The notes under the pieces are model-generated. The model saw nothing but the letters and a program-made list of their open reading frames with translations. It made no database searches and was not told the DNA's origin. Of a stretch of DNA of 64,000 nt, positions 1,821-44,300 are shown in pieces. This stretch comes from Flavobacterium sangjuense (GTDB taxonomy: Bacteria > Bacteroidota > Bacteroidia > Flavobacteriales > Flavobacteriaceae). The stretch is from the NCBI RefSeq assembly GCF_004797125.1, contig NZ_CP038810.1:2542001-2606000 (forward strand). Reading direction: 5' to 3'. Positions within the stretch are counted from its first letter, which is position 1. Each line of letters opens with the position of its first letter. Made by a program: the position numbers and the translations under genes.

Positions 1821-3248
1821 CTAGTTTGAGGCAGCAATTTTTTTTATCATTCCGTTAAAAATGAAAAAATGAAAAGGCAGCATACTATACCAATATAATC
1901 GGCCAAAAATGCCTCTTGGTCGAAACGTAGCAATTTGATGCAAAACATTATTTTCATCGATACGAAATTCCAACCAAGCTTCACCGGGAACTTTCATTTC
2001 AGCAAAAAGCAGTAGCCGTTTGTTTTCTTTATCAGCCAACAAAACCCTCCAAAAATCTAAAGAATCTCCGTTATACAAATCGGATGTACTGGTTCTTCCT
2101 CTACGCAAGCCAACTCCACCAAGTAATTTGTCTATGGAGCCACGCAATTGCCACATCCAATCGCCATAATACCAACCTTTATCACCACCAATTGACCAAA
2201 TGTTTTGTAAAACTTGATCCGGATTGGTAATCTTTATTGATTTACTGTCTTTCAAACAACCAAAATTTGGAACCTGGATATAATGAGATAAACTTTTTTT
2301 AAAACGGCTACTGACCAAACTGTCTTTCCAACTTGAAATCACTAAGTTTTGTTCTATTTTTTCAAATGCCAATTTAATCGCATCTATATAAGATATTGGT
2401 TTGATATCAAGCATTTTTTGAAGTCTATTGTCTTTACAAATTACTTCTACTTTCATACTATCGACTAAATTTATTGCCAGTTTATAAGATGTTGAAGTAA
2501 CAAAATACAACCAATAGGAAGACAATTTTGGGGTCATAATCGGGACTGTTATTATCCCCAATTTGATATTACGGGTTTTGGCGTACAATTGCATCATTTG
2601 TTTGTAAGTGATTACATTTGGCCCACCAATATCAAATGATTGGTTAAAGCAATCAACCCTATTTTGCACACCAAGCAAATATTGAATTACATCCCGAATA
2701 GCAATAGGCTGCGTCTTTGTCAGCACCCATTTTGGCGTAATCATTACAGGTAATTTTTCACATAAATCCCGAATTATTTCGAATGAAGAGCTTCCTGAGC
2801 CTACAATAATTCCGGCTTTTAAAACCGTTAAATTTGGTTTTCCTTGAGACAATATTTTTTCAACACTATTTCTCGAAAGCATGTGTTTGGATAAATTTGG
2901 ATCATTGACAATACCGCTTAAATAGATGACTTGTTTGACCTTCATATATTCTGAATATTGATTGAAGTTTTGAGCGGTTTTGGCTTCCATAACATCAAAA
3001 GCAGCTGTAGAACTGGACATTGAATGAATTAAAAAATAGGCAATATCAATATCAAGCGGACAGATGTCAAAATGAATATCATCTAAAAAATCAACTTCCC
3101 AAATCGTGACTAAAGACAGTATTTGCGAGTCAAATCCCATACGCATTTTATCGCGAACACAACAAACCACTTCATGTCCTTGCGCCAGTAATTCGGGTAA
3201 TAACCTTCTGCCTACATAACCATTTGCTCCTGTTAAAAGAATTTTCAT
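1821..3248 (-). CDS. NAD(P)-binding SDR-like protein with C-terminal DUF2867
   Basis: The N-terminus carries an atypical short-chain-dehydrogenase Rossmann motif (ILLTGANGYVGRRLLPEL, residues 3-20). The middle resembles NmrA/NAD-dependent epimerase folds (YLSGIVND, GGPNVITYKQM). From about residue 340 to 475 it has a DUF2867 module (WQLRGSIDKLLGGVGLRRGR, FRPRGIFGRLYWYSMLPFH). Substrate and reaction are not known. It is the last gene of the photolyase operon, 6 bp after the DASH cryptochrome. SDR/DUF2867 proteins recur beside photolyases in other bacteria (general knowledge, not checked here), suggesting a role in the light or oxidative stress response. The 475-residue length is normal for this fusion. 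Confidence 0.85.
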   Translation of the reverse strand: MKILLTGANGYVGRRLLPELLAQGHEVVCCVRDKMRMGFDSQILSLVTIWEVDFLDDIHFDICPLDIDIAYFLIHSMSSSTAAFDVMEAKTAQNFNQYSEYMKVKQVIYLSGIVNDPNLSKHMLSRNSVEKILSQGKPNLTVLKAGIIVGSGSSSFEIIRDLCEKLPVMITPKWVLTKTQPIAIRDVIQYLLGVQNRVDCFNQSFDIGGPNVITYKQMMQLYAKTRNIKLGIITVPIMTPKLSSYWLYFVTSTSYKLAINLVDSMKVEVICKDNRLQKMLDIKPISYIDAIKLAFEKIEQNLVISSWKDSLVSSRFKKSLSHYIQVPNFGCLKDSKSIKITNPDQVLQNIWSIGGDKGWYYGDWMWQLRGSIDKLLGGVGLRRGRTSTSDLYNGDSLDFWRVLLADKENKRLLLFAEMKVPGEAWLEFRIDENNVLHQIATFRPRGIFGRLYWYSMLPFHFFIFNGMIKKIAASN

Positions 3249-3254
3249 AAAACA

Positions 3255-4553
3255 TCAATCAATTACATTCAACCATAAATTTCTATACGCTTCATTCTTA
3301 TCATAATCCTGTGCTTGCTTCTCGATATTGAAATAGCGATTGCCTCTTGGATCGTTTCCAACTCCGGCTAAATACGCCCAATTTCCCCAATTACTGCACA
3401 CATCATAATCGATTAATTGCTGCTCAAAATAAGCGGCGCCATAACGCCAATCGAGTTTCAAATCGTTACACAAATAACTGGTTACATTTTGTCGGCCACG
3501 ATTGCTCATGAAACCTGTTAGCTTAAGTTCAATCATATTGGCATCAACAAAATCAACACCGGTTGCACCAGCAATCCAACTTTGCAAGACCTGAATATTA
3601 TGTTTATTTACCTTAATTCCTTTGTTTTGAATTCCGGCTAATTGAAAAAATTTGGTGCGATATTTCTTCATCATAAACCTAAAATAATCACGCCATAATA
3701 ACTCAAAAACCAGCCAGTATGTTGATTCGTTAGCTTCGTATTGCGTTTCATATTTTTTGAGTTCAAAATAGATTTCTCTTGGCGATAAGCAACCCATTGC
3801 CAGCCATGCTGAAAATTTGGAGGAATAATCAGCGCCTATCATTCCATTACGCGTTTCTTTGTATTTTGATATCGATTTTGTTTCAAAAAAATAATGCTGA
3901 ATACGCTGTAATCCTTCGGTTTCACCACCTTTAAAGTGAAGCACCGCTCTGGAATCAATTGCAATTTTACCCAAACCTAAATCATTCAAAGTTGGTAAAT
4001 TGATTTCCGCAATTTTAGGAGATTTAATTCGCAGCGGTTTTTGGAAAACAGTTCTAATCACTGCATCTTTCTCAGTCTTTTTTCTGAAATTAGTAAAAAC
4101 ATCCGGAATATCTTTTATGGAAAAAGGCAAATCTTCAGCGTGATACAACGTACTCGTGCTGAGTGTTTCGAATTCACATCGCAGTTTAAAAAGTTCAGCT
4201 TGAACTATAGCTTCGGTTTGCTTTTCCTCGTGAGCAACTTCTCTTTTGGCAAACACTTTATACGCTTTATATTCCTGAACTATTTTCGGAATTTCAACTT
4301 CTGGCTTCCCTTTTAAGATAATCAAACCTGAACCTAATTCCCGTAGATTTTTATCTAAATCGGCAACTGATTCTAATAAAAATTGCGCTCTGAAACTTCC
4401 TGTTTTTTTGAAACCGTATTCCGTGACTTTAAATTGAGCTTCATCAAAACAATAAACAGGAATAATCTCGTCGCTCTTGGCTATTGCTTTTACGAGTGTT
4501 TCATTGTCATGCAATCGCAAATCGGTTTTGAACCAAACGATACTTCTTCTCAT
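3255..4553 (-). CDS. DASH-family cryptochrome
   Basis: Flavoprotein of the CRY-DASH group, which repairs UV-induced cyclobutane dimers in single-stranded or looped DNA and may also act as a blue-light sensor. The N-terminal photolyase alpha/beta domain starts [17 protein letters not shown]. The C-terminal FAD domain contains WLAMGCLSPREIYFELKKYE, TGFMSNRGRQNVTSYLCNDL and DYDVCSNWGNWAYLAGVGND, the last being characteristic of DASH proteins. Its 432 residues are usual for bacterial members. The start overlaps the stop of the upstream FeS photolyase by 4 bp (ATGA), which implies translational coupling. Confidence 0.93.
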   Translation of the reverse strand: MRRSIVWFKTDLRLHDNETLVKAIAKSDEIIPVYCFDEAQFKVTEYGFKKTGSFRAQFLLESVADLDKNLRELGSGLIILKGKPEVEIPKIVQEYKAYKVFAKREVAHEEKQTEAIVQAELFKLRCEFETLSTSTLYHAEDLPFSIKDIPDVFTNFRKKTEKDAVIRTVFQKPLRIKSPKIAEINLPTLNDLGLGKIAIDSRAVLHFKGGETEGLQRIQHYFFETKSISKYKETRNGMIGADYSSKFSAWLAMGCLSPREIYFELKKYETQYEANESTYWLVFELLWRDYFRFMMKKYRTKFFQLAGIQNKGIKVNKHNIQVLQSWIAGATGVDFVDANMIELKLTGFMSNRGRQNVTSYLCNDLKLDWRYGAAYFEQQLIDYDVCSNWGNWAYLAGVGNDPRGNRYFNIEKQAQDYDKNEAYRNLWLNVID

Positions 4554-6091
4554 AACGCATTTATATTTTTCAGATAATAATCGGCTTGCTCTAACAAAGC
4601 ACTTTTATCTTCGGGTTTCATTTGACGCCAAACGTTATACATCATTCCGATACGAGGATTTTTTGATAATTTGTCTTCATGTTTATCGTAAAAATTCCAA
4701 TACAAGCTGTTAAACGGACATGCTTTTTCGCCAGTTTTTAGAGCCTTTTTATAGAAACAGCTTCCACAATAATGACTCATTTTATCAATATAGGAAGCCG
4801 AACTCACATACGGTTTTGTACCTACAATTCCGCCATCGGCAAACTGGCTCATGCCACGTGTGTTGGTGATTTCAACCCATTCAATAGCATCAATATAAAT
4901 CCCAAGATACCAGGCATCAACTTCATCCGGATGAACCCCGGCTAACAAGGCAAAGTTTCCGGTAATCATCAATCGCTGAATGTGATGTGCATAGGCATAA
5001 TCTAAAGATTGTGTTATGGCATCTTTTAAACAATTCATTTTAGTCTTTCCTGTCCAAAACCAATTGGGCAATTTTTCAGTGTGATTAAGGAAATTCAACG
5101 AAGCAAATTCGGGCATTTTTAACCAATAAATCCCGCGCATGTATTCGCGCCAACCTATAATTTGTCTAACAAAACCTTCGAGTTGGTTGTAATCAATTTC
5201 ATCTTTCCTTTTTTCCCATTCTTGAATCGCTCTATCGGTTACTTCTTTTGGAGAAATCATTTTAACATTCATCGAAAACGAAAGACGCGAATGGTATAAT
5301 GACCATTCATTGGGCACCATCGAGTCTTGATAAGACCCAAATAAAGGCAAACATTCCGCCACAAAAAAGTCGAGTAAAGCTAATGATTGCTCACTATTTA
5401 TGGGCCAAACGAAATTGTTTTCATCAATAGTTCCGATAGTTGAAATAGCTGTACTTTTTAGCTCTGAAACAATTTGCGTCACCTCATTATTAAAAACCAA
5501 TGGCGCAGTTGGTTTGTGATTTGCGGGCAACTTTTTTCGGTTATCACCATCATAATTCCATTGACCAGCTGTTGGTTTATCGCCTTCCATCAACATATTG
5601 TGCTTCTTTCGCATGTTGCGATAAAAGCTTTCCATCAAATACATTTTCTTTCCTTCAAAGAAGTCGCCTAATTCTTCTCTTGTACTGAAAAAATGTTCGG
5701 TATCATAAACAGAATATGGAATTGAAAGTTGATTACAATAACTTTTCAATAAACCATCTAATCGATATTCATCGGGTAATTGATATTCGAATTGAGTATA
5801 ATTTCCTTGACTCAGAATCGCATTTAAATTCTTTTCAAATGATTGCAAATTGGTTGCGTCATTTAAATGAATGTAAATTACAGAATGCTTTTTCGACTGT
5901 AATTCCGCAGCAAAAGAACGCATAGCACTAAAAAAACCAACTACTTTCTGAATGTGATGATGCACATAATCGGTTTCGGTTCTCACTTCCATCATGACAT
6001 AAGTAACCGTATCATCGACGGTTTTAAACCAAGAATGATTTATGTTTAGCTGGTCACCTAGAATTAACCTAAGAATAGCACTATTTTTCAT
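4550..6091 (-). CDS. FeS bacterial cryptochrome/(6-4) photolyase
   Basis: Member of the photolyase-related family of Agrobacterium PhrB and Rhodobacter CryB, which repair (6-4) photoproducts or act in light signalling and bind FAD, a lumazine antenna and a [4Fe-4S] cluster. Starting at the ATG at 6091 gives 513 residues beginning [16 protein letters not shown]. Cysteines at 354, 442, 445 and 458 have the same spacing (88, 3, 13) as the PhrB cluster ligands C350, C438, C441 and C454. An in-frame ATG at 6115 adds 8 residues but lies inside the DUF2256 gene and is less likely. The gene overlaps DUF2256 by 11 bp upstream and the DASH cryptochrome by 4 bp downstream. Confidence 0.93.
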
Positions 6092-6227
6092 TTCTATTGC
6101 CTCTGCATTTATCACTACAATATTTTACTTCATCCCAAACTTTCTCCCATTTTTTGCGCCAGGAAAAAGGTCGGTTACAAACCACGCAAATTTTGCTAGG
6201 TAAGTTTTGTTTTTTTGTTCCGCGCAT
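6081..6227 (-). CDS. DUF2256 zinc-ribbon small protein
   Basis: A 48-residue protein starting [20 protein letters not shown], with a C-x2-C pair (ICVVC) and a second pair (YCSDKC) that together form a small zinc ribbon, plus the DUF2256 signature [11 protein letters not shown] between them. It is shorter than usual annotation cut-offs. It overlaps the end of the upstream photolyase-like gene by 32 bp and the start of the FeS photolyase by 11 bp, all in different frames, so it sits in the operon as a coupled cistron. DUF2256 proteins are commonly found next to cryptochromes (family knowledge); their function is unknown. Binding of a nucleic acid or of the partner photolyase is speculation. Confidence 0.9.
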
Positions 6228-7707
6228 GAGTTGTTTTATTTGAATTGGGATTCGTTACATGCTTTTTCAGAATTCGCTTTCCTTCTTCTTTGACTTCATT
6301 TGTTTTTCGAAAACTCCAGATAATATCACTTGCGTATTTTCGGGTTGCTTCAATATCAACAATTGGTACTGGGTAATCTTTTCCAATTTCACATTGATAT
6401 AATTGCTGTTCAATTAAGCTCAATTTCCAGGGTTCATGAATTAAATGAGCCGGAATATTGGCCAACTCGGGTAACCATTTTTTTATAAAAATTCCCTCGC
6501 TATCGTGTTCTTCCGAATTCTTTATTGGATTATAAATTCGAACCGTATTGATTCCGGTAACACCCGATTGCATTTGTAACTGTGGATAATGAATGCCCGG
6601 TTCATAATCTAAAAACTGCCGCGCCAAAAAATGCAACTCACGCCAATCCTGCCAAAGATTAAACACAAAAAACGACACGACCATCGCCCGCATTCTAAAA
6701 TTGAGATAACCCGTCGCGACCACACATCGCATACAAGCATCAACTATGGGAACTCCAGTTTTTCCTTGTTGCCAAGCTTGAATATAAACTTCATTTCTAG
6801 GCTTAATTATTACATCAAAAGCACTGTTAATGTTATGAAATTCCATCCGACATTCATCCTCAAACTTTTGCATAAAATGACAATGCCAATGCAATCTCGA
6901 CACAAAATTGAGCATTGCTCTTTTGTTGGAAGCTTGTTCATAAAACTGATTCGTATATTGGTAAACCATTCGCATACTGATGTTTCCGTAAGCCAAGTAA
7001 GGCGATAATCGGCTGCATCCTTTTCGGCTCAAATTAGGTTTTGAAATATGCTTGCTATAATTAACGTAGCGCTCTTTTACAAAACTGTCTAAATACCGCC
7101 AAGCCCAATATTCACCACCTTGCTGGAAGTTGTTATTGTGTGTTGTGATTTCATTACTTAGATTTTCACCTTTTAATTTGTTGTATAAATCGGAATCTAA
7201 TTTTTCAGTTTTTAGAGAATTTAAATCAATTATTTTTGGAGTAGCCCGCATTACATTTTCCCAACGTTTGTCCCAATCTTTTCTGGATTTTAATTTCCGA
7301 ATCACGCCGTGCAGTTGGAATTCCCTCCACTCGATTGCATTTTCAGCAAAGTAATTTTGCATTTCGATGTCTCTGTCAAACGTAACTTTGTTACCTATTT
7401 CCTGATGCGAAAAAATGGTTTTTACATTATACACTTTTGCAATTTCTTCGAAAACTGCTTTCACTTCATGATGAAAAAAATAGATTTTGGCTTCAACCGA
7501 ATCTAATTGGGTTTGCAAACCTTGAATCGATTCATAAACAAACCGCCAATGTCTTACATCGGAGTCATCATAAGCCATAACAGAAGGTTCGAAAAAATAA
7601 AGTAGCAAAATAGGTAAACCCGATAGTTGTGCATGAAATAAAGGTTCGTGATCGGCCAATCGCAAATCTCTTTTAAACCAAACAATATTTATGGCTTTTT
7701 TATCCAA
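6196..7707 (-). CDS. Cryptochrome/deoxyribodipyrimidine photolyase family protein
   Basis: Third photolyase paralogue of the operon, 503 residues. The N-terminal antenna domain begins [18 protein letters not shown]. The FAD domain shows [46 protein letters not shown] and a C-terminal block [17 protein letters not shown]. These are classic DNA photolyase FAD and DNA-contact motifs, but I cannot assign CPD, (6-4) or sensory subclass by eye. The C-terminus is a lysine-rich tail of about 25 residues. It lies 2 bp after the flavin reductase gene and overlaps the DUF2256 gene. It clearly differs from the DASH protein, so it is not a recent duplicate. Confidence 0.9.
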
Positions 7708-7709
7708 TG

Positions 7710-8348
7710 CTATAAAATTGATGTTAACGCTTTATCCGGTTTGGCATAACTCAATCGGTCTAATCGTTTCGTAGTGTGATAACTATCCAATCCTGAACAA
7801 GTAATCGTATCCGCTTTTTCCAAATCGATAAATCCATCGTTACCCAGACAATTTTCCGGAAAATAAACCTGAACAATTTCGCCAATAATCATAATGGTAT
7901 TATTGACTGTGATATCAATTTTTTCTCGGAATGCCATTCCAATTTGCACCAAACTTTCTTTTACAAAAGGGACTTTGAAATTATTTTTATATTCAGGTGT
8001 TAAGCCGGTTTCATCAAATTCAGAAACTCCTTTTTCATAACGTGCTGAAGTTTGATGCGCTTGTTGATAAATGGTTTCGTTGATGTGATTCAAAGTGTAA
8101 AAACCGGTTTCAAGCAGATTATTTAAAGTGTTTCGCTCTGGCGGACTTGGTCTAAAAATCAAGGCCATCAATGGTGGATTCGCGCCAATATGAATCAACG
8201 AACTAAAAACGGCAAGATTAGTTTTTCCTTCATTATCAACCGTTCCAACAAGAGCTACACTTTTAAAACCGCCTAAACTATTTATAAAATGAACACGTTC
8301 TTGTTTTTCCATCGCCATTATAGCAGCTGAAGAAATATGTTTTTGCAT
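7710..8348 (-). CDS. Flavin reductase-like split-barrel protein
   Basis: Predicted FMN-binding split-barrel protein of the flavin reductase (RutF/HpaC-like) superfamily; the block [20 protein letters not shown] and the following [18 protein letters not shown] are typical. The start chosen is the ATG at 8348 ([11 protein letters not shown]), giving 212 residues; an in-frame upstream ATG at 8405 would add 19 residues that overlap the DUF2452 gene and look non-native. It is 2 bp upstream of a photolyase gene. Photolyases need fully reduced FAD, so supplying or reducing flavin is an attractive but unproven role. Confidence 0.88.
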
Positions 8349-8365
8349 TTTTTTTGTTTTTGTAA

Positions 8366-8785
8366 TTATTGAAAAACACTGTCTTTTTGATTCAACACAA
8401 TCCACTTCTTATCACTATTCAATTTGAAAGTGCCTATGTGTTCTTTATTCCATTCTTGCGGAGAAATTAACGACAGAAAGTTAATTCCGTCATCGCCTCT
8501 GTATAAATGATAAATTTCACCAATTACCGGTTCGAATGAAAACTTTGCATTATAAACTAATTCGTTCCATTCATACTCGTTCATTAAGTTTTGATATTGC
8601 ATTTTAAGTTCATTGAACTTATTTTCAAATTCCTTGTTAACAGTGCTAATTCCTCTGCTTTTCCAAGAAACAAGATCATCCATTTTAATAACCGGAGCAC
8701 CAACATTTGATGCATACGGCAACAGACTTGCATTGTAACCCTGTTCTTCAGAAAATGCTATATTATCAGGCATTTCTTTTTCCAT
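8366..8785 (-). CDS. DUF2452 domain protein
   Basis: A 139-residue cytoplasmic protein resembling the DUF2452 family: conserved-looking blocks are NKFNELKMQYQNLMNEYEWN (helical) and EPVIGEIYHLYRGDDGINFL followed by SLISPQEWNKEHIGTFKL. Function is unknown. It is the second gene of the photolyase operon, 11 bp after the TIGR03643 gene and 17 bp before the flavin reductase. An alternative ATG four codons in (8773) is possible. Confidence 0.82.
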   Translation of the reverse strand: MEKEMPDNIAFSEEQGYNASLLPYASNVGAPVIKMDDLVSWKSRGISTVNKEFENKFNELKMQYQNLMNEYEWNELVYNAKFSFEPVIGEIYHLYRGDDGINFLSLISPQEWNKEHIGTFKLNSDKKWIVLNQKDSVFQ

Positions 8786-8796
8786 TTTTTTTATAA

Positions 8797-9087
8797 TTAT
8801 CGTTTCGAAATCTTATTATTGGAAATCGCACGTTGCCTATTGCATTTGAATCTATCGATTCCGGTTACACGTTTTGCCAAATGCTTTGTTTTACAATTTT
8901 CAACACGCTTTCTCCAAAATTTGTAACTGCTAAATTTGAGCTCCCGTTTCATCAACGCTTTAACATCGGCTTCAGCCAGACCAAACTGAATTTTAATTGC
9001 ATCAAACGGAGTTCTGTCTTCCCAAGCCATTTCAATAATCCGGTCAATTGCGATATCGTCTAAATTTGTTTTTGCGGTTATCAACAT
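8797..9087 (-). CDS. TIGR03643 family small protein
   Basis: A 96-residue basic protein with the TIGR03643 signature: IDRIIEMAWEDRTPFDAIK, then QFGLAEADVKALMKRELK and SYKFWRKRV. The central pair of helices looks like a helix-turn-helix, which would suit a small DNA-binding protein, but no function is established. It is the first gene of the photolyase operon, next to the divergent aroB. TIGR03643 proteins co-occur with DUF2256 and cryptochromes in other genomes (family knowledge), so it could be a regulator or an accessory factor. Confidence 0.85.
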   Translation of the reverse strand: MLITAKTNLDDIAIDRIIEMAWEDRTPFDAIKIQFGLAEADVKALMKRELKFSSYKFWRKRVENCKTKHLAKRVTGIDRFKCNRQRAISNNKISKR

Positions 9088-9117
9088 TTTGTTTATTATT
9101 TTTTAAATAAAGTTAAA

Positions 9118-9125
9118 CAAATATA
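9118..9125 (-). promoter_or_regulatory. -7 element of the photolyase operon
   Basis: TATATTTG on the minus strand, an exact TAnnTTTG match, about 31 bp before the TIGR03643 start. There is no TTG at the expected -33 distance, so the promoter may need an activator or an alternative sigma factor. Confidence 0.45.
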
Positions 9126-9170
9126 AAACTTATTTGTCACTGAAAATTGAAAACCTATTAATAAAACTTA

Positions 9171-9202
9171 TTGTATTATTAGAAAAAAAATCCCTTATTT
9201 TG
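9171..9202 (+). promoter_or_regulatory. Predicted aroB promoter
   Basis: TTG at 9171, 21 bp spacer, then TTATTTTG (one mismatch to TAnnTTTG), ending 18 bp before the ATG at 9221. It lies inside the in-frame extension back to 9134 and so argues for the shorter aroB start. Confidence 0.5.
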
Positions 9203-9220
9203 CTGAATACATTTAAGACA

Positions 9221-10584: not shown

Positions 10585-11988
10585 ATGAACACTAAATATT
10601 TCGATTTAATTAATCAAACCTATTACTTCCCACAGGAAGAATTTACTTTAAACAAAGAAAGCCAATTGCAATTTCACAATATCGATTTGATGAAATTAGT
10701 AGAACAATACGGCACACCTTTAAAGTTTACTTATTTGCCACAAATTTCCAACAACATTAAAAGAGCCAAAAACTGGTTTAGAAATGCCATGGAAAAAAAC
10801 AAGTACGAAGCCAAATATTACTATTGTTATTGTACCAAAAGTTCGCATTTTCAATACATAATGAATGAGGCATTCAAAAACAATATCCATATTGAAACAT
10901 CTTCTGCTTTCGATATCAATATAGTGGAGAATTTATTGGAAAACGGAAAAATCAACAAGAGCACTTATATAATATGTAATGGTTTCAAACGCGACCAATA
11001 CATTGAAAACATTGCCCGTTTGATTAATCATGGTCATAAAAATACTATTCCGATTATTGATAATTATGAGGAATTAGATTTGTTACAGGAGCAAATTAAA
11101 GGTAAATTCAAAATCGGAATCAGGATTGCTGCCGAGGAAGAACCAAAGTTTGAGTTCTATACTTCCCGTTTAGGAATTGGATACAAAAACATCTTGAACT
11201 TTTATAAAAAGCAAATTCAGGAAAATGATAAACTGGAGTTGAAAATGCTTCACTTTTTCATCAATACCGGAATTAATGATACGGCTTACTATTGGAACGA
11301 ATTGGTAAAATGTATCAAAGTTTACATTCAACTTAAAAAAGAATGTCCGTCACTTGATGGATTAAACATTGGCGGAGGATTTCCTATCAAAAACTCTCTG
11401 GCATTTGAATTTGATTACCAATATATGATTGACGAAATCATCAATCAGATTAAAATTGCCTGCGAGGAAGAGGAAGTTGATGTTCCTAATATCTTTACTG
11501 AATTTGGTTCGTTTACTGTTGGAGAATCGGGTGGCGCAATTTATCAGGTTTTGTATCAAAAACAACAAAACGACAGAGAAGCCTGGAACATGATTGACAG
11601 TTCATTTATTACAACTTTACCTGATACCTGGGCAATCAACAAACGTTTTATCATGCTTGCCGTAAACCGTTGGAATGATACTTACGAAAGGGTTTTATTG
11701 GGCGGTATGACATGCGACAGCGACGATTACTACAACTCTGAGCAGAATATGAACGCCATCTATCTGCCAAAATACAATAAAGAAAAACCCTTATATATAG
11801 GTTTCTTCAATACAGGTGCTTATCAGGAAACCATTGGTGGTTTTGGCGGTTTGCATCACTGTTTGATTCCACAGCCGAGACATATTTTAATTGATAGAGA
11901 TGAAAACGGAATTTTGGCAACTGAGGTTTTCTCAGAACAACAAACTTCTGACGATGTCTTGAAAATATTAGGATACCAAAAAAAATAA
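10585..11988 (+). CDS. speA: Arginine decarboxylase, PLP-dependent fold III
   Basis: Predicted to convert arginine to agmatine for polyamine synthesis. The 467-residue protein has an alanine-racemase-like barrel with the PLP lysine in the motif YYYCYCTKSSH (residues about 79-89), a glycine-rich phosphate site GLNIGGGFPIKN, and the C-terminal CDSDDYY motif (in GGMTCDSDDYY) of ornithine/arginine/DAP decarboxylases. It is shorter than the roughly 630-residue E. coli biosynthetic SpeA and is the compact form commonly annotated as arginine decarboxylase in flavobacteria; ornithine or another basic amino acid cannot be excluded as substrate. The deoxyhypusine-synthase-like gene follows after 142 bp. 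Confidence 0.85.
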   Translation: MNTKYFDLINQTYYFPQEEFTLNKESQLQFHNIDLMKLVEQYGTPLKFTYLPQISNNIKRAKNWFRNAMEKNKYEAKYYYCYCTKSSHFQYIMNEAFKNNIHIETSSAFDINIVENLLENGKINKSTYIICNGFKRDQYIENIARLINHGHKNTIPIIDNYEELDLLQEQIKGKFKIGIRIAAEEEPKFEFYTSRLGIGYKNILNFYKKQIQENDKLELKMLHFFINTGINDTAYYWNELVKCIKVYIQLKKECPSLDGLNIGGGFPIKNSLAFEFDYQYMIDEIINQIKIACEEEEVDVPNIFTEFGSFTVGESGGAIYQVLYQKQQNDREAWNMIDSSFITTLPDTWAINKRFIMLAVNRWNDTYERVLLGGMTCDSDDYYNSEQNMNAIYLPKYNKEKPLYIGFFNTGAYQETIGGFGGLHHCLIPQPRHILIDRDENGILATEVFSEQQTSDDVLKILGYQKK

Positions 11989-12130: not shown

Positions 12131-13105
12131 ATGAGCAAAGGACCAATTAGTCAGTTTATAGAAAAACATTACCTTCATTTCAATGCGGCAGCGCTTGTTG
12201 ATGCAGCAAAAGGATACGAAGAACACTTGCTTGACAATGGTAAAATGTTGATTTCACTTGCCGGTGCTATGAGTACTGCCGAGCTGGGAAAATCATTAGC
12301 CGAAATGATTCGTCAGGATAAAGTGCATATTATTTCTTGTACTGGCGCCAATTTGGAAGAAGATATTATGAATTTGGTAGCTCACAATTCTTATAAGAGA
12401 GTACCAAACTATAGAGATTTAAGTCCGCAGGAAGAATGGGATTTATTAGAAAATCATTTTAACCGCGTTACTGATACTTGTATTCCGGAAGAAGAAGCTT
12501 TCCGCAGATTACAATCGCATTTATATGATATTTGGAACAATGCCAACTCAAAAGGAGAACGTTATTTTCCGCATGAGTTCATGTATCAGATGATTAATTC
12601 AGGTGTGTTGCAACAATATTATGAAATTGATCCAAAAGATTCCTGGATGGTGGCTGCAGCCGAAAAGAATTTGCCAATCGTAGTTCCGGGTTGGGAAGAC
12701 AGTACCATGGGAAACATCTTTGCTTCCTATTGTATCAAAGGAGAATTTAATGCTACCACTATGAAAAGTGGTATCGAATATATGATGTGGTTAGCCGATT
12801 GGTATCCAAAAAACTCAACAGGAAAAGGATTAGGTTTCTTCCAGATTGGTGGTGGAATTGCAGGAGATTTTCCAATATGTGTAGTGCCAATGTTATATCA
12901 GGATATGGAAATGCACGAGGTTCCATTTTGGAGTTATTTTTGCCAAATATCCGATTCGACTACCAGTTATGGTTCATATTCAGGAGCTGTTCCAAATGAA
13001 AAAATTACGTGGGGGAAACTCGACATACATACACCCAAATTTATTGTTGAATCGGATGCAACAATTGTTGTACCTTTAATCTTTGCTTACATACTAGATT
13101 TATAA
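12131..13105 (+). CDS. Deoxyhypusine synthase-like protein
   Basis: 324-residue NAD-dependent enzyme of the deoxyhypusine synthase family. In eukaryotes and archaea this transfers the aminobutyl group of spermidine to eIF5A; bacteria lack that substrate, and bacterial homologues are thought to act in polyamine metabolism, for example homospermidine formation. Visible motifs are LISLAGAMSTAELGK (NAD site), the central IVVPGWEDSTMGN, GGGIAGDFPICVVP, and NEKITWGKL, whose lysine aligns with the catalytic lysine of human DHS. The neighbouring arginine decarboxylase supports a polyamine role. The next gene follows after 11 bp. Confidence 0.85.
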   Translation: MSKGPISQFIEKHYLHFNAAALVDAAKGYEEHLLDNGKMLISLAGAMSTAELGKSLAEMIRQDKVHIISCTGANLEEDIMNLVAHNSYKRVPNYRDLSPQEEWDLLENHFNRVTDTCIPEEEAFRRLQSHLYDIWNNANSKGERYFPHEFMYQMINSGVLQQYYEIDPKDSWMVAAAEKNLPIVVPGWEDSTMGNIFASYCIKGEFNATTMKSGIEYMMWLADWYPKNSTGKGLGFFQIGGGIAGDFPICVVPMLYQDMEMHEVPFWSYFCQISDSTTSYGSYSGAVPNEKITWGKLDIHTPKFIVESDATIVVPLIFAYILDL

Positions 13106-28432: not shown

Positions 28433-28633
28433 CATTTTGTTTGATTTTGGGTTTAGGCAAAAAAGGGTAAGATAAGAGTTTTGACAGTTTTTCTCTTTCC
28501 TTACATCAAAATTATTTAAAGTGATTGCACTTTTGAGTGAAATAAGCCGTGTCGACAAAATGCATTGTTGAATGGTATAAAACTGTCGATGAGCACGTTA
28601 ATCAGCATCTCGAAAATTTAATGGAATAAAAAA

Positions 28634-28934
28634 AAGCAGACCTATAAGCCGGATTCTGTATTCACCGATGTGGTGAATCCTTATCATTTATCTAGACCAA
28701 CAATTACTCATTGATTCAAGCTTCCTACCCTTCGACAACGGGCGAGTAACCCTTAAATGTCGATATACTTGGAATTTCACCGCATAGAGTTTACCTGGTT
28801 TCACTACAGCCGAACTGTACTTGCTTTCTGTTGCACTTGTCCTCGTCTTTCAACGGTTGGGTGTTACCCAATATGCTACTCTGTGGTGTCCGGACTTTCC
28901 TCCCCAATTTCTCAGGACGATAAGGCGGTCTGCG
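28634..28934 (-). ncRNA. rnpB: RNase P RNA
   Basis: Catalytic RNA of RNase P, which matures tRNA 5' ends. On the minus strand the conserved CR-I block GAGGAAAGTCCGGAC lies near 28885-28905, and the 3' CR-V block reads GAATACAGAATCCGGCTTAT close to 28645-28670, followed by AGGTCTGC that pairs with the 5' GCAGACC arm (P1/P4-type pairing) and a T-run terminator. The length of about 300 nt fits a short bacterial type A RNA. The 5' end is placed from the -7 box; both ends are accurate to a few bases. Confidence 0.93.
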
Positions 28935-28937
28935 GCG

Positions 28938-35363: not shown

Positions 35364-38300
35364 ATGAAATCAAATTTTACACTTTCGAAGAATTTGTGCG
35401 CTTTCTTGATACTTAATATACTTTGTATATCAATGTCCTTTGCGCAGACTTTTCCACCAGCCAATACTTCCTGTACCTCAAAAGACCTTGAGGTTGTCGC
35501 GGCCACATTAACCGGTGGAGGTCCATGTAATTCCTGTCCTACCCCGACAACAATTACAAGAAACCTAATGCTGGGAATTAGTAACACCACTGGGTCCACC
35601 AGAACTTCGTTTGCCTTTTGGGGAACGGTTGAAATCTATAGTGGTACAACAGGTGCATTAATTTCTTCACAAACTAGAACAGGATGCAATGGACCTGTAC
35701 CAGGCGGTACAACTTCTTATTTAAACTTTGGTAATATTACCTACACTTGTGGGGATGTTATCAAAATTTCGAATATCTGGGAAGCCTGGACTACTGCTGC
35801 TGGAAATGAAACCTGTCCGTTAGATCCACTCAACATTTCGCCTAAATGTGGAAAAATTCCATCCATTACCGTTAACGGTGGTGTGAACGGAGAATTTGCG
35901 AATATTGATTCGCAATGTGGTTCAGCTACAGGAGCTTTAGATTTAACACCTTCAGGAGGAACAGCTCCTTTTACTTATTTATGGACTGCTTCAGGTGGAG
36001 GTGTTATCCCTGCCGGACAATCTACCAGTCAAGATCTTACCGGTTTGGTACCTGGAACCTATTCTGTTGTAATAACAGATGCAAACGGTTGTACTATTAC
36101 TAAATCACGAACAGTTGTTGCTAGTATAGCACCTGTTCCTGTATTTACCACGGCAAATGCCATTACTGTCCCTTGTGGTTCAGCCACAACAAGCACATTA
36201 ACCTATACTAATGGTGCTTCAGGAGCTTGTTTAATCAGTGGCTCGGTTACTTCGTCTTTAAGTTCACAAACACCAAGTGGGGCTTGTGGAGGAATAGTAG
36301 TAGAAACCTGGACATATACAGACATCTATGGCAGAACCATTACACAATCCAGAAACATAACAATTAGCCCGGCTGCATTACCAACGATGACTGCACCTGG
36401 AAATATAACTGTCGCTTGCGGAGGCTTACCTGCTGCAAGCACAATCCCATTTACCAATGGTTTAAGTGGCGGATGTTTGATTAATGGAACTTCAAATCCA
36501 TCAACGTTCACTGCTACGCCTGGCGCTTGTGGTGGAACAGTAACTGAAACATGGACTGCAACGGATAGTTGCGGTAGAACTTTGGCTCCGGTTTCAAGAA
36601 TTATTACAATAAGTCCGGCAACATTACCAACGATGACTGCTCCGGGAAATATCACTGTTGCTTGTGGAGGTTTACCTGCTGCAAGCACTATTTCATTTAG
36701 TAATGGATTAGGTGAAGGTTGCTTAATCAGCGGAACTTCAAATTCTTCTACCTTCACAGCAACACCTGGCGCTTGTGGAGGAACCGTAACTGAAACATGG
36801 ACTGCAACGGATAGTTGTGGTAGAGCATTGGCTTCTGTATCAAGAACTATTACTGTTAGTCCTGCTGCATTACCAACAATGACTGCTCCTGCAGATATTA
36901 CTGTTACTTGTGGAGGCTTACCTGCTGCAAGTACACTTCCATTTACCAATGGATTAAGTGCTGGATGTTTAGTTAGTGGAACTTCAAATTTATCGACGTT
37001 CACAACTACAGTTCCAGGTAATTGTAACGGAAAAGTAACTCAAACATGGACTGCAACAGATAGTTGTGGTAGAACATTGGCTTCAGTTTCAAGAATAATA
37101 ACAGTTGACGATACTACGGCTCCAACATTTGATGCATTACCTGCACCAAGTGCTGTAAGCTATAGCACAACACCATCATTCCAACAAGCTGTCGCAACTG
37201 ATGCTTGTAGTTCGGTAACATTGACATTTGATGATGTCCCTACTCCAACAAATTGTGATGGTTCTTATTCTATTACAAGAACCTGGACTGCGAAAGACAT
37301 ATGTAATAATACAAGTACAGCATCACAAACAATTAATATTAATGCTGCAGTATTTGTTGCCAATAACGATTCAGGAAGTTCAATTAATGGTTTCGTGGGT
37401 GGAACTTCATTTACAAATGTTTTAGTAAATGATACTTTAGATGGAAACCCAATAACAAGTTCTCAGGTAACTACTACTTTTGTTTCTTCTACTAATGCTG
37501 GAGTAACATTATCGGGTAACAATGTTGTTGTTGCTCCTGGTACACCTGCCGGAAATTATACTTTAACGTATCAAATTTGTGGTGCTTCTGCAACTTGTAG
37601 TTGTGCTACGGCAACAGTAACTGTTCCTGTTACTGCTACTTTGATTGATGCCGTAAACGATACTGCGGCTCCTATCAACGGTTATGTTGGTGGAACGGCT
37701 TTTACTAATGTATTGGTTAACGATACTTTGAATGGTGTTGCGGTTATTACTTCGCAGGTAAACACAACTTTTGTGTCTTCTACTAATGCGGGAATCACTT
37801 TATCTGGAACTGATGTGCTTGTAGCTCCTGGAACTCCTGCAGGTTCTTATACTTTAACATACCAAATCTGTGAAGCCTTAAATCCAACTAATTGTGATCA
37901 GGCAATCGTTTCTATTACGGTTACTGCGGCTGCTATTGTAGCTAATGACGATACTGCGGCTCCTATCAACGGATATGTTGGCGGAACGGCTTTTACTAAT
38001 GTACTGGTTAACGATACGCTTAACGGTGCTCCGGTTATCCCTTCTCAGGTAAACACAACTTTTGTGTCTTCTACTAATGTGGGAATAACTTTATCAGGAA
38101 CTAACGTATTGGTTGCTCCTGGAACACCTGCAGGTTCTTATACTTTAACATACCAAATCTGTGAAGTTTTAAATCCTTCTAATTGTGATCAGGCAATCGT
38201 TTCTATAACGGTTACTGCGGCTGCTATTGTAGCTAATGACGATACTGCGGCTCCTATCAACGGTTATGTTGGTGGAACGGCTTTCACTAATGTACTGGTT

Positions 38301-41300
38301 AACGATACTTTGAATGGTGCTCCGGTTATCCCTTCTCAGGTAAACACCACTTTTGTGTCTTCAACTAATGCGGGAATCACTTTATCAGGAACTAACGTAT
38401 TGGTTGCTCCTGGAACACCTGCCGGTTCGTATTCACTAACATACCAAATCTGTGAAGTACTTAATCCAACTAATTGTGATCAGGCTGTAGTTTCTATTAC
38501 CGTTACTGCTGCTCCAATTGTGGCTAATGACGATACTGCGGCTCCTATCAACGGTTATGTTGGTGGAACGGCTTTCACTAATGTACTGGTTAACGATACT
38601 TTGAATGGTGTTGTAGTTATTCCTTCTCAGGTAAACACAACTTTTGTGTCTTCTACTAATGCGGGAATCACTTTATCAGGAACTAACGTATTGGTTGCTC
38701 CTGGAACGCCTGCCGGTTCGTATTCACTTACATACCAAATCTGTGAAGTACTTAATCCAACTAATTGTGATCAGGCTGTAGTTTCTATTACCGTTACTGC
38801 TGCTCCAATTGTAGCTAATGATGATACTGCGGCTCCTATCAATGGTTATGTTGGTGGAACGGCTTTCACTAATGTATTGGTTAACGATACACTTAACGGT
38901 GTTGCTGTTATTCCTTCGCAGGTAAACACAACTTTTGTGTCTTCAACTAATGTGGGAATCACTTTATCAGGAACTAATGTACTTGTGGCACCTGGAACGC
39001 CTGCCGGTTCTTACTCTTTGACTTACCAAATCTGTGAAGTTTTAAATCCAACTAATTGTGATCAGGCAATCGTTTCTATTACGGTTACTGCGGCTCCAAT
39101 TGTGGCTAATGACGATACTGCGGCTCCTATCAACGGTTATGTTGGTGGAACAGCTTTCACTAATGTACTGGTTAACGATACTTTGAATGGTGCTCCGGTT
39201 ATTCCTTCTCAGGTAAACACAACTTTTGTGTCTTCAACTAATGCGGGAATCACTTTATCTGGAACTAACGTATTAGTTGCTTCTGGAACACCTGCAGGTT
39301 CTTATACTTTAACATACCAAATCTGTGAAGTTTTAAATCCTTCTAATTGTGATCAGGCAATCGTTTCTATTACGGTTACTGCGGCTCCGATTGTGGCCAA
39401 TGACGATACTGCGGCTCCTATCAACGGTTATGTTGGTGGAACGGCTTTCACTAATGTACTGGTTAACGATACTTTGAATGGTGCTCCGGTTATCCCTTCT
39501 CAGGTAAACACAACTTTTGTGTCTTCAACTAATGCGGGAATCACTTTATCAGGAACTAACGTATTGGTTGCTCCTGGAACGCCTGCAGGTTCGTATACTT
39601 TAACATACCAAATCTGCGAAGTCTTAAATCCAACTAATTGTGATCAGGCAATCGTTTCTATTACGGTTACTGCTGCTCCAATTGTGGCCAATGACGATAC
39701 TGCGGCTCCTATCAACGGTTATGTTGGTGGAACAGCTTTTACTAATGTACTTATTAACGATACACTTAACGGTACTCCGGTTATTCCTTCTCAGGTAAAC
39801 ACAACATTTGTGTCTTCAACTAATGCTGGAATCACTTTATCAGGAACTAATGTTCTTGTTGCTCCTGGAACGCCTGCTGGTTCATATACTCTTACATACC
39901 AAATCTGTGAAGTACTTAATCCATTAAACTGTGATCAGGCTGTAGTTTCTATTACAGTTACTGCTGCTGCAATTGTGGCTAATGACGATACTGCTGCGCC
40001 TATCAACGGGTATGTTGGTGGAACAGCTTTCACTAATGTACTTATTAACGATACACTTAATGGTGCTCCGGTTATTCCTTCTCAGGTAAACACAACTTTT
40101 GTGTCTTCTACTAATGCAGGAATCACTTTATCAGGAACTAACGTATTGGTTGCTCCTGGAACACCTGCCGGTTCATATACTTTAACATACCAAATCTGCG
40201 AAGTCTTAAATCCAACTAATTGTGATCAGGCAATCGTTTCGATTACGGTTACTGCGGCTCCAATTGTGGCTAATGACGATACTGCTGCGCCTATCAACGG
40301 TTATGTTGGTGGAACGGCTTTCACTAATGTATTGGTTAACGATACACTTAACGGTGCTCCGGTTATTCCTTCGCAGGTGAACACAACTTTTGTGTCTTCT
40401 ACTAATGCAGGCATAACTTTATCCGGAACTAACGTATTGGTTGCTCCTGGAACACCTGCCGGTTCTTACTCTTTGACTTACCAAATTTGTGAAGTACTTA
40501 ATCCTTTAAATTGTGATCAGGCAATCGTTTCGATTACGGTTACTGCGGCTGCAATTGTGGCTAATGACGATACTGCTGCGCCTATCAACGGTTATGTTGG
40601 TGGAACGGCTTTCACTAATGTATTGGTTAACGATACACTTAACGGTGTTGCTGTTATTCCTTCGCAGGTAAACACAACTTTTGTGTCTTCAACTAATGTG
40701 GGAATCACTTTATCAGGAACTAATGTACTTGTGGCACCTGGGACGCCTGCCGGTTCTTACTCTTTGACTTACCAAATCTGTGAAGTTTTAAATCCAACTA
40801 ATTGTGATCAGGCTGTAGTTTCTATTACCGTTACTGCGGCTCCAATTGTGGCTAATGACGATACTGCGGCTCCTATCAATGGTTATGTTGGTGGAACAGC
40901 TTTCACTAATGTACTGGTTAACGATACGCTTAACGGTGCTCCGGTTATTCCTTCTCAGGTGAACACAACTTTTGTGTCTTCAACTAATGCTGGGGTAACT
41001 TTATCAGGAACTAATGTACTTGTGGCCCCTGGAACGCCTGCCGGTTCATATACTTTAACATACCAAATCTGCGAAGTCTTAAATCCAACTAATTGTGATC
41101 AGGCAATCGTTTCGATAACGGTTACTGCGGCTCCAATTGTGGCTAATGACGATACTGCGGCTCCTATCAACGGTTATGTTGGTGGAACGGCTTTCACTAA
41201 TGTACTGGTTAACGATACGCTTAACGGTGTTGCTGTTATTCCTTCTCAGGTAAACACAACTTTTGTGTCTTCTACTAATGCGGGAATCACTTTATCAGGA

Positions 41301-44300
41301 ACTAACGTATTGGTTGCTCCTGGAACGCCTGCCGGTTCATATACTTTAACATACCAAATCTGTGAAATCTTAAATCCAACTAATTGTGATCAGGCAATCG
41401 TTTCTATTACGGTTACTGCGGCTCCGATTGTGGCTGTTAATGATAATTATAACGTTGATTGTGCTAATATTGGAACTATCGGAAACATTCTTTCAAATGA
41501 TTCCTTAAACAACAACAATATTACTATTGCACAAGTTAATTTGTCAATCGTAAATGGATCTTATCCAAATTTAAATATTGATGCTAACGGAAATGTTTCA
41601 TTAACAAGTATTGGACATTGTGGTGATTATACTTTTACTTATCAAATTTGTGAAAAATTAAACCCGGATAATTGTGATACTGCAACCATAACTGTTACAA
41701 TTATAGATAACACGGCACCAACTTTCACAACACCTGGCAATATTACCTTAAATACAGATGCAAATTGTTCGGTTAATCTTAATCCTTCAAACACAGGAAA
41801 CCCAACAAATGTTAGTGACAATTGTGATGCTAATCCGACAGTAACTTTTAACGACAACGAATGTTTTGGAAACTTCACTGAGAGCAATATTAATGCTGGT
41901 AATGGAAATTACTTCTATTTTGATGTTACAGGTTTCAATAATGCAACTGCTGCAAATATTGAAAAAGTTGCTTTAGCATTTGAAACAAATCAAGGAAAAG
42001 GAAGAGCTGAATTCACATTGGTTTCACCTAGTGGACAAGCAGTTATTTTAGTTGGTCCTTATTGTACTGGTGGAAATTGCGATGATACTGATTCAAACTC
42101 TCAAGAATTATATTTACCGGAATTCTATCCTACTGCTTCAGGTTATACACAATGGAATAATAATAATTCTATAGCGACTAATGTGGCGCAAAACTTTACG
42201 CCAAATGGTTCATTGTCTTCTCCAAATACTATAACTGGTTTAACTTCTTATGTTTCTGGTTTTGAAAACTTAACTGGACCAATGAATGGAACTTGGTTTA
42301 TATATTCAAGAAAACAATCTAATGTAAATGGAAGTATTAACTTCAAAAGTGTTTGTTTGACACCAGCCGGTTTATGTCCAAGTAATAGAGTTATTACCAG
42401 AACCTGGACAGTAACAGATGCTTGTGGAAATAGCACTGACGGAACACAAACTATAACCATTCAGGATGTTACTGCTCCTACCTGGTCTACAACAGCTGGT
42501 TCTTTAGACACAACTGTTGAATGTAGCGACGCTGCTGCTTTGGCTGCTGCTCAGGCACTTGCTCCGGTAGCTACTGATAACTGTGCCGGAACTATAACTT
42601 ATGTTAAAACATCTGGTGCATTTGTACCTTCACAAGGATGTTCAAATGCTGGCACTTACACCAATACTTGGACAGCGAATGATGTATGCAATAATATATC
42701 AACTGTATTCACTCAGGTTATAACTGTTCAAGATACTATAGCTCCTATTTGGGAAACTGCTAATGGTGCTTTAAATGCAACTGTTGAATGTGCTGATAAA
42801 GCTGCTTTAGATGCCGCTCAAGCATTAATTCCGGTAGCATCCGATTTGTGTGATGCTGATGTAACTAACATAATCAAGAAAGATGGTAATTTTATACCTA
42901 CAATAGGTTGTATAAATACAGGAACCTATACTAATGAATGGACTGTTATGGATGCTTGCGGTAATGATTCTGTAGCATTTACACAGATTATTACAGTGGT
43001 AGACACAACTGCTCCATCTATTGATACTGCTGCTGCTAATGCAACTGTTCAATGTGATGGTCAGGGAAATACAACGGCTTTACAAGCTTGGTTGAACTCT
43101 AACGGTGGTGCTGCTGCTTCTGATGCATGTTCTGACGTAACCTGGTCAAACAATTTCTCAACATTAAGCGACGATTGTGGTAACACAGGTACAACTACAG
43201 TAACATTTACAGCTACTGATGGTTGTGGAAATACCACAACAACTTCAGCTACATTTACTATAGAAGACACTACTGCTCCAACTATTGATACTGCTGCTGC
43301 TAATGCAACGGTGGAATGTGATGGTAATGGTAATGCAGAAGCTTTAACAGCTTGGTTAGCTTCTAATGGTGGAGCCTCAGCTTCAGATGCTTGTTCTAAT
43401 GTAACATGGTCAAATAACTTTAATGAATTAAATGATGGTTGTGGTAACACTGGTTCAGCTTCTGTAACCTTTACGGCTACTGATGATTGTGGTAATGCTA
43501 CAACAACTTCAGCTACATTTACTATAGAAGATACTACTGCTCCAACTATTGATACTGCTGCTGCTAATGCAACGGTGGAATGTGATGGAAACGGTAATAC
43601 AGCTGCACTTCAAGCTTGGTTAGCTTCTAATGGTGGTGCTTCAGCTTCTGATATCTGTTCTAACGTAACCTGGACTAACAGCTTTGATGCACTTAGTGAT
43701 GGTTGTGGTAACTCAGGTTCTTCAACGGTAACCTTTACAGCTACTGATGATTGTGGGAACGCTACAACAACTTCAGCTACATTTACTATAGAAGATACTA
43801 CGGCTCCAACTATTGATACGGCTGCAGCTAACGCTACAGTTGAATGTGATGGTAATGGTAATACTGCTGCACTTCAAGCTTGGTTAAGCTCAAACGGTGC
43901 TGCTGCTTCTTCTGATATCTGTTCTAACGTAACATGGACTAATAACTTCTCTGCTTTAAGCGATGGTTGTGGTAACTCCGGTTCTGCTACTGTAACCTTT
44001 ACAGCTACTGATGATTGTGGTAATGCTACAACAACCTCAGCTACATTTACTATAGAAGATACTACGGCTCCAACTATTAATACTGCTGCAACTGACTTAG
44101 TAGTACAATGTGATGGTAGTGGAAATTCTGAGGCTTTACAACAATGGATTGCCAATAATGGTGGTGCTTCAGCTTCTGATATTTGTTCTAACGTAACTTG
44201 GTCGAATGATTTCAATGCTTTAGCAAATGATTGTTCAGCAGCCGTAACAGTAACATTCACTGCTACCGATGATTGTGGTAATGCTACAACAACTTCGGCT

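Follow-up and report, generated by a model that had tools for sequence, protein, structure and literature searches.

An operon of Flavobacterium sangjuense that groups an Fe-S (6-4) photolyase with DUF2256, TIGR03643 and a divergent photolyase relative

An operon of eight genes in Flavobacterium sangjuense groups an Fe-S bacterial (6-4) photolyase, here called DPRP after its domain, with two small proteins of the DUF2256 and TIGR03643 families and with a divergent photolyase relative, P6. It lies at positions 1821..9087 of the 64,000-nucleotide stretch analysed here (the window; NZ_CP038810.1, positions 2,542,001 to 2,606,000), in a host genome of 3.13 Mb and one contig. DUF2256, TIGR03643 and P6 are associated with DPRP in genome content, in co-occurrence across phyla and in gene linkage. 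We lean towards reading the operon as a photorepair module built around the Fe-S (6-4) photolyase, to which DUF2256, TIGR03643 and P6 would be auxiliary. Fe-S (6-4) photolyases are usually viewed as stand-alone enzymes. The function of their Fe-S cluster was still called unknown in 2025 (PMC12082625), and only two earlier reports of photolyases in operons are counted in PMC9649867; what we say of papers cited by PMC number applies to the portions of their text that were available.

Results

The operon is nearly filled by eight open reading frames (ORFs) on the minus strand, each matched to its named family by profile searches. From the first gene to the last, followed by the upstream region, its features are (aa, amino acids; FAD, flavin adenine dinucleotide):

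8797..9087, minus strand: TIGR03643 / DUF2805 small protein, 96 aa; first gene; family profiles and structure model
8366..8785, minus strand: DUF2452 protein, 139 aa; Pfam match
7710..8405, minus strand: flavin reductase-like protein, PF01613 (Flavin_Reduct, 64.6 bits); likely ATG start at 8348
6196..7707, minus strand: P6 (P0006), divergent photolyase/cryptochrome-like protein, 503 aa; DNA_photolyase and FAD_binding_7 domains
6081..6227, minus strand: DUF2256 (P0005), 48 aa, Cys4 zinc-ribbon-like; Pfam match and Cys pairs
4550..6115, minus strand: DPRP (P0004), Fe-S bacterial (6-4) photolyase (FeS-BCP/CryPro); likely ATG start at 6091
3255..4553, minus strand: DASH cryptochrome (Cry-DASH, P0003); TIGR02765 match, canonical photolyase residues
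1821..3248, minus strand: SDR (NAD(P)-binding) fused to DUF2867; last gene; Pfam domains
9088..9218, minus strand: likely promoter region toward aroB, with the motif TATATTTG

DUF2256 and TIGR03643 follow DPRP in Bacteroidota

One set of 247 Bacteroidota genomes was searched for every family. DPRP was found in 83 of them, DUF2256 in 79, main-type TIGR03643 in 66, P6 in 36 (rows of at least about 249 bits) and DUF2452 in 25. A TIGR03643 paralogue was split off before counting, and the 7 genomes having only this paralogue were excluded from the main type; two weak DUF2256 matches (G011 and G082) are part of the 79 but not of the 77 genomes used for linkage and permutation. DPRP was present in 73 of the 79 DUF2256 genomes and in 61 of the 66 main-type TIGR03643 genomes (Fisher p=6e-44 and 6e-33 respectively, values that ignore shared ancestry).

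To control for ancestry, presence was permuted within families, the window's own family being divided into its genus and the rest, over 61 class-level genomes with 20000 permutations. DPRP coincided with DUF2256 in 34 genomes (22.8 expected), with TIGR03643 in 32 (21.9 expected) and with P6 in 19 (12.9 expected), at 0/20000 in each case; for DUF2452 there were 18 genomes against 12.9 expected (7/20000). The survey of genomes that the first-pass annotation had proposed thus gives a clear association of DUF2256 and TIGR03643 with DPRP, and DUF2452 co-occurs too. Within the window's genus (15 genomes) the patterns of DPRP, DUF2256 and main-type TIGR03643 are identical, with 8 presences and 7 absences.

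The association is with this enzyme. Several photolyase classes are represented among the 108 genomes that match P0006 at E<=1e-20; in these, DUF2256 is found in 61/64 genomes with DPRP vs 4/44 without it, and TIGR03643 in 52/64 vs 5/44. When the 36 P6 genomes are removed the values become 26/28 vs 4/44 for DUF2256 and 21/28 vs 5/44 for TIGR03643. DUF2256 and TIGR03643 follow DPRP specifically, not photolyases in general. As for P6, it is confined to genomes that have DPRP, in 36/36 cases among the 247 Bacteroidota and in 34/34 among the TIGR03643-selected, mostly proteobacterial genomes described below.

Gene content of the locus is preserved while order is shuffled

In 51 of the 77 genomes a photolyase gene on the same strand is found no more than 3 kb from DUF2256, photolyases other than DPRP being taken from a hand-picked list. 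Positions for linkage were copied by hand, and the lists of other photolyases (30 rows) and of SDRs (17 rows) served for linkage only. Eighteen loci (L171-L188), selected for linked genes, show that in Bacteroidota the content is preserved and the order shuffled. Three genomes (G088, G198 and G226) carry in one run the flavin reductase, SDR-DUF2867, DUF2256, Cry-DASH, DPRP, P6, an extra ORF and TIGR03643; in G174 the run is TIGR03643-DUF2452-FlavRed-P6-DUF2256-DPRP. The flavin reductase is found in 10 of the 18 loci (on the opposite strand in one) and SDR-DUF2867 in 8. The recurring core is P6-DUF2256-DPRP together with TIGR03643, often with Cry-DASH.

Relatives' loci also contain genes for a TetR-type protein (six loci), a UbiB-like ABC1 kinase, a GTP cyclohydrolase I, a glutathione peroxidase, TspO and a further SDR. 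In three of the loci a protein of 378-417 aa having only the FAD domain (PF03441) adjoins TIGR03643 (L173:5814-6947 on the minus strand, L181:6854-8104 and L188:5756-6997 on the plus strand); we take these proteins to be perhaps of the topologically distinct type named 'NewPHL'. No such FAD-domain-only protein was seen in the operon of the window.

The association recurs in Proteobacteria and on plasmids

TIGR03643 loci outside Bacteroidota were sampled as the best 80 of 587 confirmed loci; nearly all are proteobacterial, and the Acinetobacter-led query favours Gammaproteobacteria. In these best 80, the density of photolyase genes within 3 kb of TIGR03643 is 8.3 times that farther away (25 vs 6 genes, binomial p=9e-8). 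A photolyase lies within 3 kb in 19/80 loci and anywhere in the flank in 23/80; the other 57 have no photolyase in the flank examined. Genome searches were set up for 46 of the 80 loci and covered 44 genomes; 40 have DPRP, 41 DUF2256 and 34 P6, and DPRP and DUF2256 are both present wherever P6 is (34 of 34). Because the 44 genomes were chosen for TIGR03643, a baseline was needed, for which we used a class sample of 190 genomes: DPRP exceeded its cut-off in 33, TIGR03643 was present in 12 and both in 11 (one-sided Fisher p=9e-9; p=5e-8 without the centre genome).

The order P6-DUF2256-DPRP, with the strand it has in the window, recurs in 5 of the 44 genomes, from Nitrincola (L208), Pseudoalteromonas (L212, L218 and L266) and Leucothrix (L253). 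In Leucothrix arctica CryDASH-P6-DUF2256-TIGR03643-DPRP are consecutive. The grouping is thus more than chance, since much of the gene set recurs, shuffled in other Bacteroidota and with some of its order preserved in Gammaproteobacteria. On plasmids, TIGR03643, DUF2256 and a photolyase are adjacent on Acinetobacter pYH12138-1 (L159), where the trio adjoins nudC and a desaturase/DUF1365/CFA-synthase cassette, and DUF2256 adjoins a photolyase on one Rhizobium and one Sphingomonas plasmid.

We also classified 97 of the 135 neighbours of TIGR03643 (the 38 dropped by hand were chiefly short or near-duplicate); ChrR-type cupins (5), photolyase FAD domains (5) and DPRP (4) are among the most frequent families. 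The ChrR-type (Cupin_7) genes directly adjoin gammaproteobacterial TIGR03643 at L195:9270-10001, L198:3496-4209, L203:9279-9995, L210:10203-10991 and L217:9177-9983. A SigmaE-ChrR-TIGR03643 operon, considered for L195, L198, L203 and L217, was dropped because Cupin_7 matches in two stretches (L195, L203, L210, L217) and the upstream neighbour in L195 is of the glyoxalase family.

The (6-4) photolyase and the DASH cryptochrome

The DPRP domain scores 255.3 bits in P0004 (cut-off 22.1), and eight PDB sequences of the FeS-BCP (6-4) family match this protein with E-values of 2e-97 to 2e-170. The alignment is near full length with FeS-BCP/CryPro entries 7ykn (E=2e-170), 4dja and 3zxs. P0004 has Cys at 362, 450, 453 and 466, i.e. 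the spacing 88-3-13, the same as that of the four Fe-S ligands of PhrB (350/438/441/454). By its sequence P0004 is an FeS-BCP (6-4) photolyase, with predicted repair activity and a predicted Fe-S cluster. In the PDB entries the photolyase is the only protein, whereas here its gene stands beside those of DUF2256, TIGR03643 and P6. P0003 matches TIGR02765 with 570.6 bits (cut-off 317.05) and is a full member of the DASH cryptochromes (e.g. PDB 1np7), with the canonical residues and no notable difference; this family acts on cyclobutane pyrimidine dimers (CPDs) in single-stranded or looped DNA.

P6 is a divergent member of the photolyase family

P6 carries both photolyase Pfam domains, DNA_photolyase and FAD_binding_7. 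Neither it nor four of its relatives reach the cut-off of any NCBIfam model; against the DASH model TIGR02765 (cut-off 317.05) P6 scores 137.1 bits and the relatives 155-176. In a tree of 50 sequences P6 proteins of Bacteroidota and Proteobacteria group together with full support; their clade sits on a long branch and is separate from both E. coli Phr and DASH. An initial view that the two phyla are interleaved in it was withdrawn: Bacteroidota may group beside Gammaproteobacteria, with weak support, and full support applies to the clade alone.

Residues of P6 were compared in E. coli Phr numbering, checked against residue identities. In E. coli Phr these positions form the FAD salt bridge, the substrate contacts and the Trp chain. 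All 21 aligned P6 members retain the salt bridge Asp372-Arg344 together with Trp277 and Trp359. In all 21, too, the FAD-facing Asn378 has become His, the substrate residue Glu274 Arg, Asn341 Phe, Trp384 Met and Arg226 Ser; Met345 is changed to Ala or Ser, and the proximal Trp382 is replaced by Leu, Phe, Ile or Met. The Trp306 column contains no Trp in any of the 21, but the stretch is gappy and in 3 members a Trp stands two columns from it. P6 thus shares with class I CPD photolyase the two Pfam domains, Asp372-Arg344, Trp277 and Trp359 but lacks its substrate residues, Asn378 and the full Trp triad 306-359-382. Trp277, Arg342 and Arg397 of DNA-binding enzymes are retained. By comparison, DASH proteins (n=19) have Asn378, Glu274, Asn341, Trp382 and Trp359, and class I proteins (n=7) have all the positions compared. 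HMMER alignments of P6 to 1np7 and to the Drosophila (6-4) photolyase give the same His and the same loss of the proximal Trp.

P6 is therefore not a conventional photolyase, and its chemistry probably differs. The three photolyases described by the first-pass annotation become, since P6 lacks the canonical catalytic residues, one (6-4) photolyase, one DASH cryptochrome and one divergent relative. A canonical class I photolyase is encoded elsewhere in the host, ~110 kb from the operon (G000:C1:2432459-2433667; L170:4448-5743), and the 9-kb stretch around it contains no match to the other query genes.

Small proteins, flavin reductase and SDR

The first gene product scores 110.1 bits with TIGR03643 (cut-off 66.55) and 116.1 with DUF2805 (cut-off 22.5). 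Its structure model is helical, with four main helices that look helix-turn-helix (HTH)-like; a structural search gave no significant match. DUF2256 scores 82.3 bits in Pfam (cut-off 25) and has the Cys pairs CVVC and CSDKC; the family has been placed in the TRASH clan of zinc fingers (PMC4047054). DUF2452 scores 51.6 bits (cut-off 25). For TIGR03643 and DUF2452 the Pfam scan returned a DUF name only and no function. DUF2452 is inside the operon in only 2 of its 25 carriers, the host genome and G174, and is thus a local guest. SDR-DUF2867 shows enrichment with DPRP without being bound to it: DPRP is present in 42 of its 75 carriers and absent from 33.

The proposal that the operon serves a single shared function, with the small proteins and the SDR as parts of the system, therefore holds unequally. 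One shared function is likely, and two of the three small proteins, DUF2256 and TIGR03643, follow the Fe-S photolyase statistically across two phyla, while DUF2452 and the SDR are more loosely attached. That these families are little described agrees with the literature: in open-licence papers, subscription journals lying outside this search, photolyase and DUF2256 are not named together, and only seven papers name any of DUF2256, DUF2452, DUF2805, TIGR03643 and DUF2867, with no link to photolyases in their available text.

Bacterial DUF2452, here at 8366-8785 of the window, co-occurs with the (6-4) photolyase. DUF2452 is also the domain name of human C1orf50, for which the authors report no bacterial orthologue (PMC11842435); the existence of bacterial members contrasts with this stated absence. 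A second, divergent DUF2805 gene was found in the host at L169:3946-4218 (G000:C1 near 1692487; 90 aa from its ATG), and such a paralogue (~97 residues) is present in 15/15 genomes of the genus examined. Two genes away, the ORF L169:2321-2980 resembles AlkB, by eye only.

Compactness of the operon and its likely promoter

With the longest ORFs the genes are separated by gaps of 2, 6 and 11 bp and overlap by 4, 32, 35 and 40 bp. The inner ATG of the flavin reductase (8348) turns its 40-bp overlap into a 17-bp gap, and that of DPRP (6091) reduces its 35-bp overlap to 11 bp; we consider these starts more plausible than the longest ORFs. With them the gaps of 2-17 bp and overlaps of 4-32 bp given in the first-pass annotation were reproduced, and its dense array of eight genes on one strand was confirmed in coordinates and families. 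Larger gaps occur only at the ends, 61 bp to a proline dehydrogenase gene and ~130 bp to where the divergent aroB gene probably starts. In the latter the motif TATATTTG ends 30 nt upstream of the TIGR03643 ATG; from the frequency in the window ~0.09 motifs of this type are expected per 130 nt on one strand. It agrees with the Bacteroidetes -7 element consensus, TAnnTTTG. A consensus-promoter scan of the window (20 hits vs 31 in shuffles) and a terminator scan (9 vs 5.9, a slight excess) were not used.

Discussion

DUF2256 and TIGR03643 accompany the same enzyme in distant bacteria and are therefore likely its working partners. P6 was found only with DPRP, with DUF2256 between them here and in five proteobacteria and with TIGR03643 alongside; from this we infer that these proteins are auxiliary subunits. 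At the centre of such a module DPRP would use light to repair (6-4) photoproducts, and Cry-DASH would deal with CPDs in single-stranded or looped DNA. P6, presumably FAD-binding and without the usual CPD binding, may be a light-sensitive or structural partner. DUF2256 could be a zinc-ribbon adaptor for DPRP and/or P6, and TIGR03643 an HTH-type nucleic-acid binder with a part in DNA targeting or regulation of the system. The flavin reductase might be a chemical source of reduced flavin, perhaps for P6, which may need it because the usual Trp chain for photoreduction is missing. The SDR may have a role here as well, and the eight genes are presumably cotranscribed and possibly induced by light.

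Some data weigh against this photorepair module. In marine metagenomes DUF2805 correlates with domains related to translation (PMC3597751), and it has been found fused to an NADH diphosphatase (PMC6856373). Besides, 6 of the 9 annotated plasmid regions around TIGR03643 or DUF2256 have no annotated photolyase, in gene tables that are incomplete, so that absence there means not annotated (a tenth plasmid record carries no annotation).

The main rival is that the genes merely share one light/UV (ultraviolet) or photo-oxidative stress regulon, DUF2256, TIGR03643, the flavin reductase and the SDR acting elsewhere (membrane, redox, tRNA or transcription). The extra genes of the relatives' loci, from TetR to the further SDR, fit with it, as does the desaturase/DUF1365/CFA-synthase cassette near the Acinetobacter plasmid trio. 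Comparable mixtures are known: the light-inducible PplR/LitR set of Pseudomonas combines phrB, ufaM, folE and cryB, and the related P. mendocina region also includes an SDR (PMC9758184), and photolyase-family operons of Vibrio cholerae are induced by blue light (PMC5241685). The Pseudomonas set, one of the nearest known parallels to the operon, unites photolyase, cryptochrome-like, folate and fatty-acid genes under light induction; in contrast, LitR/LOV proteins are absent among the 20 window proteins searched, and a TetR-type gene is present in six relatives' loci. Genes of ECF sigma/ChrR light regulons were likewise not found among these 20 proteins. Co-regulation alone accounts for the neighbours but not for the specificity for DPRP: under it there would be no reason for DUF2256 and TIGR03643 to track DPRP over any photolyase, nor for P6 to be confined to DPRP genomes. 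We hold it for a possibility, not an expectation.

A blue-light signalling system, with P6 as cryptochrome, TIGR03643 as DNA-binding output and the photolyases as targets, seems unlikely. That 21/21 P6 proteins lack residues used by repair enzymes for substrate binding and for the electron chain would suit it, and so would the HTH-like model of TIGR03643 and the place of its gene, first and beside the likely promoter. But many DPRP genomes have TIGR03643 and DUF2256 without P6 (36 P6 vs 83 DPRP genomes), and P6 keeps the three residues of DNA-binding enzymes. It is highly improbable that lineage accounts for the association, i.e. a shared sunlit habitat and a transferred photolyase island without functional tie to DPRP. 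A photolyase proximity cluster is indeed enriched in proteorhodopsin-bearing marine Flavobacteriia (PMC5932025), and the P6 clade spans Bacteroidota and Proteobacteria. However, the association survives permutation within families, content is preserved although order is shuffled, and without DPRP other photolyases are mostly not accompanied by DUF2256 or TIGR03643. The marine cluster likewise brings together photolyase and photolyase-related genes; its available text names neither DUF2256 nor TIGR03643 and gives no mechanism.

Returning to the photorepair module, we put forward only tentatively that bacterial (6-4) photorepair, where the DUF2256 zinc ribbon, the HTH-like TIGR03643 and the others are all present, is multi-component and not the work of a single enzyme. 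If DUF2256, TIGR03643 and P6 share one machine, a role could be assigned to families that have none, and repair in the cell may find its explanation in a missing part. As a naturally occurring relative that has the FAD salt bridge yet lacks the usual photochemistry, P6 helps to ask what defines a photolyase.

Other features of the window

Two giant ORFs are present at 35364-49910 (4848 aa) and 53150-62233 (3027 aa), and after each comes a type IX secretion gene of the PorP/SprF kind (49966-50877 and 62287-63198); the giant ORFs likely encode very large surface proteins. A gene of the deoxyhypusine synthase family (12131-13105) lies near one of the ornithine/arginine decarboxylase family (10585-11988), an unusual neighbourhood for a bacterium. 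A class A RNase P RNA is encoded at 28629-28936 on the minus strand.

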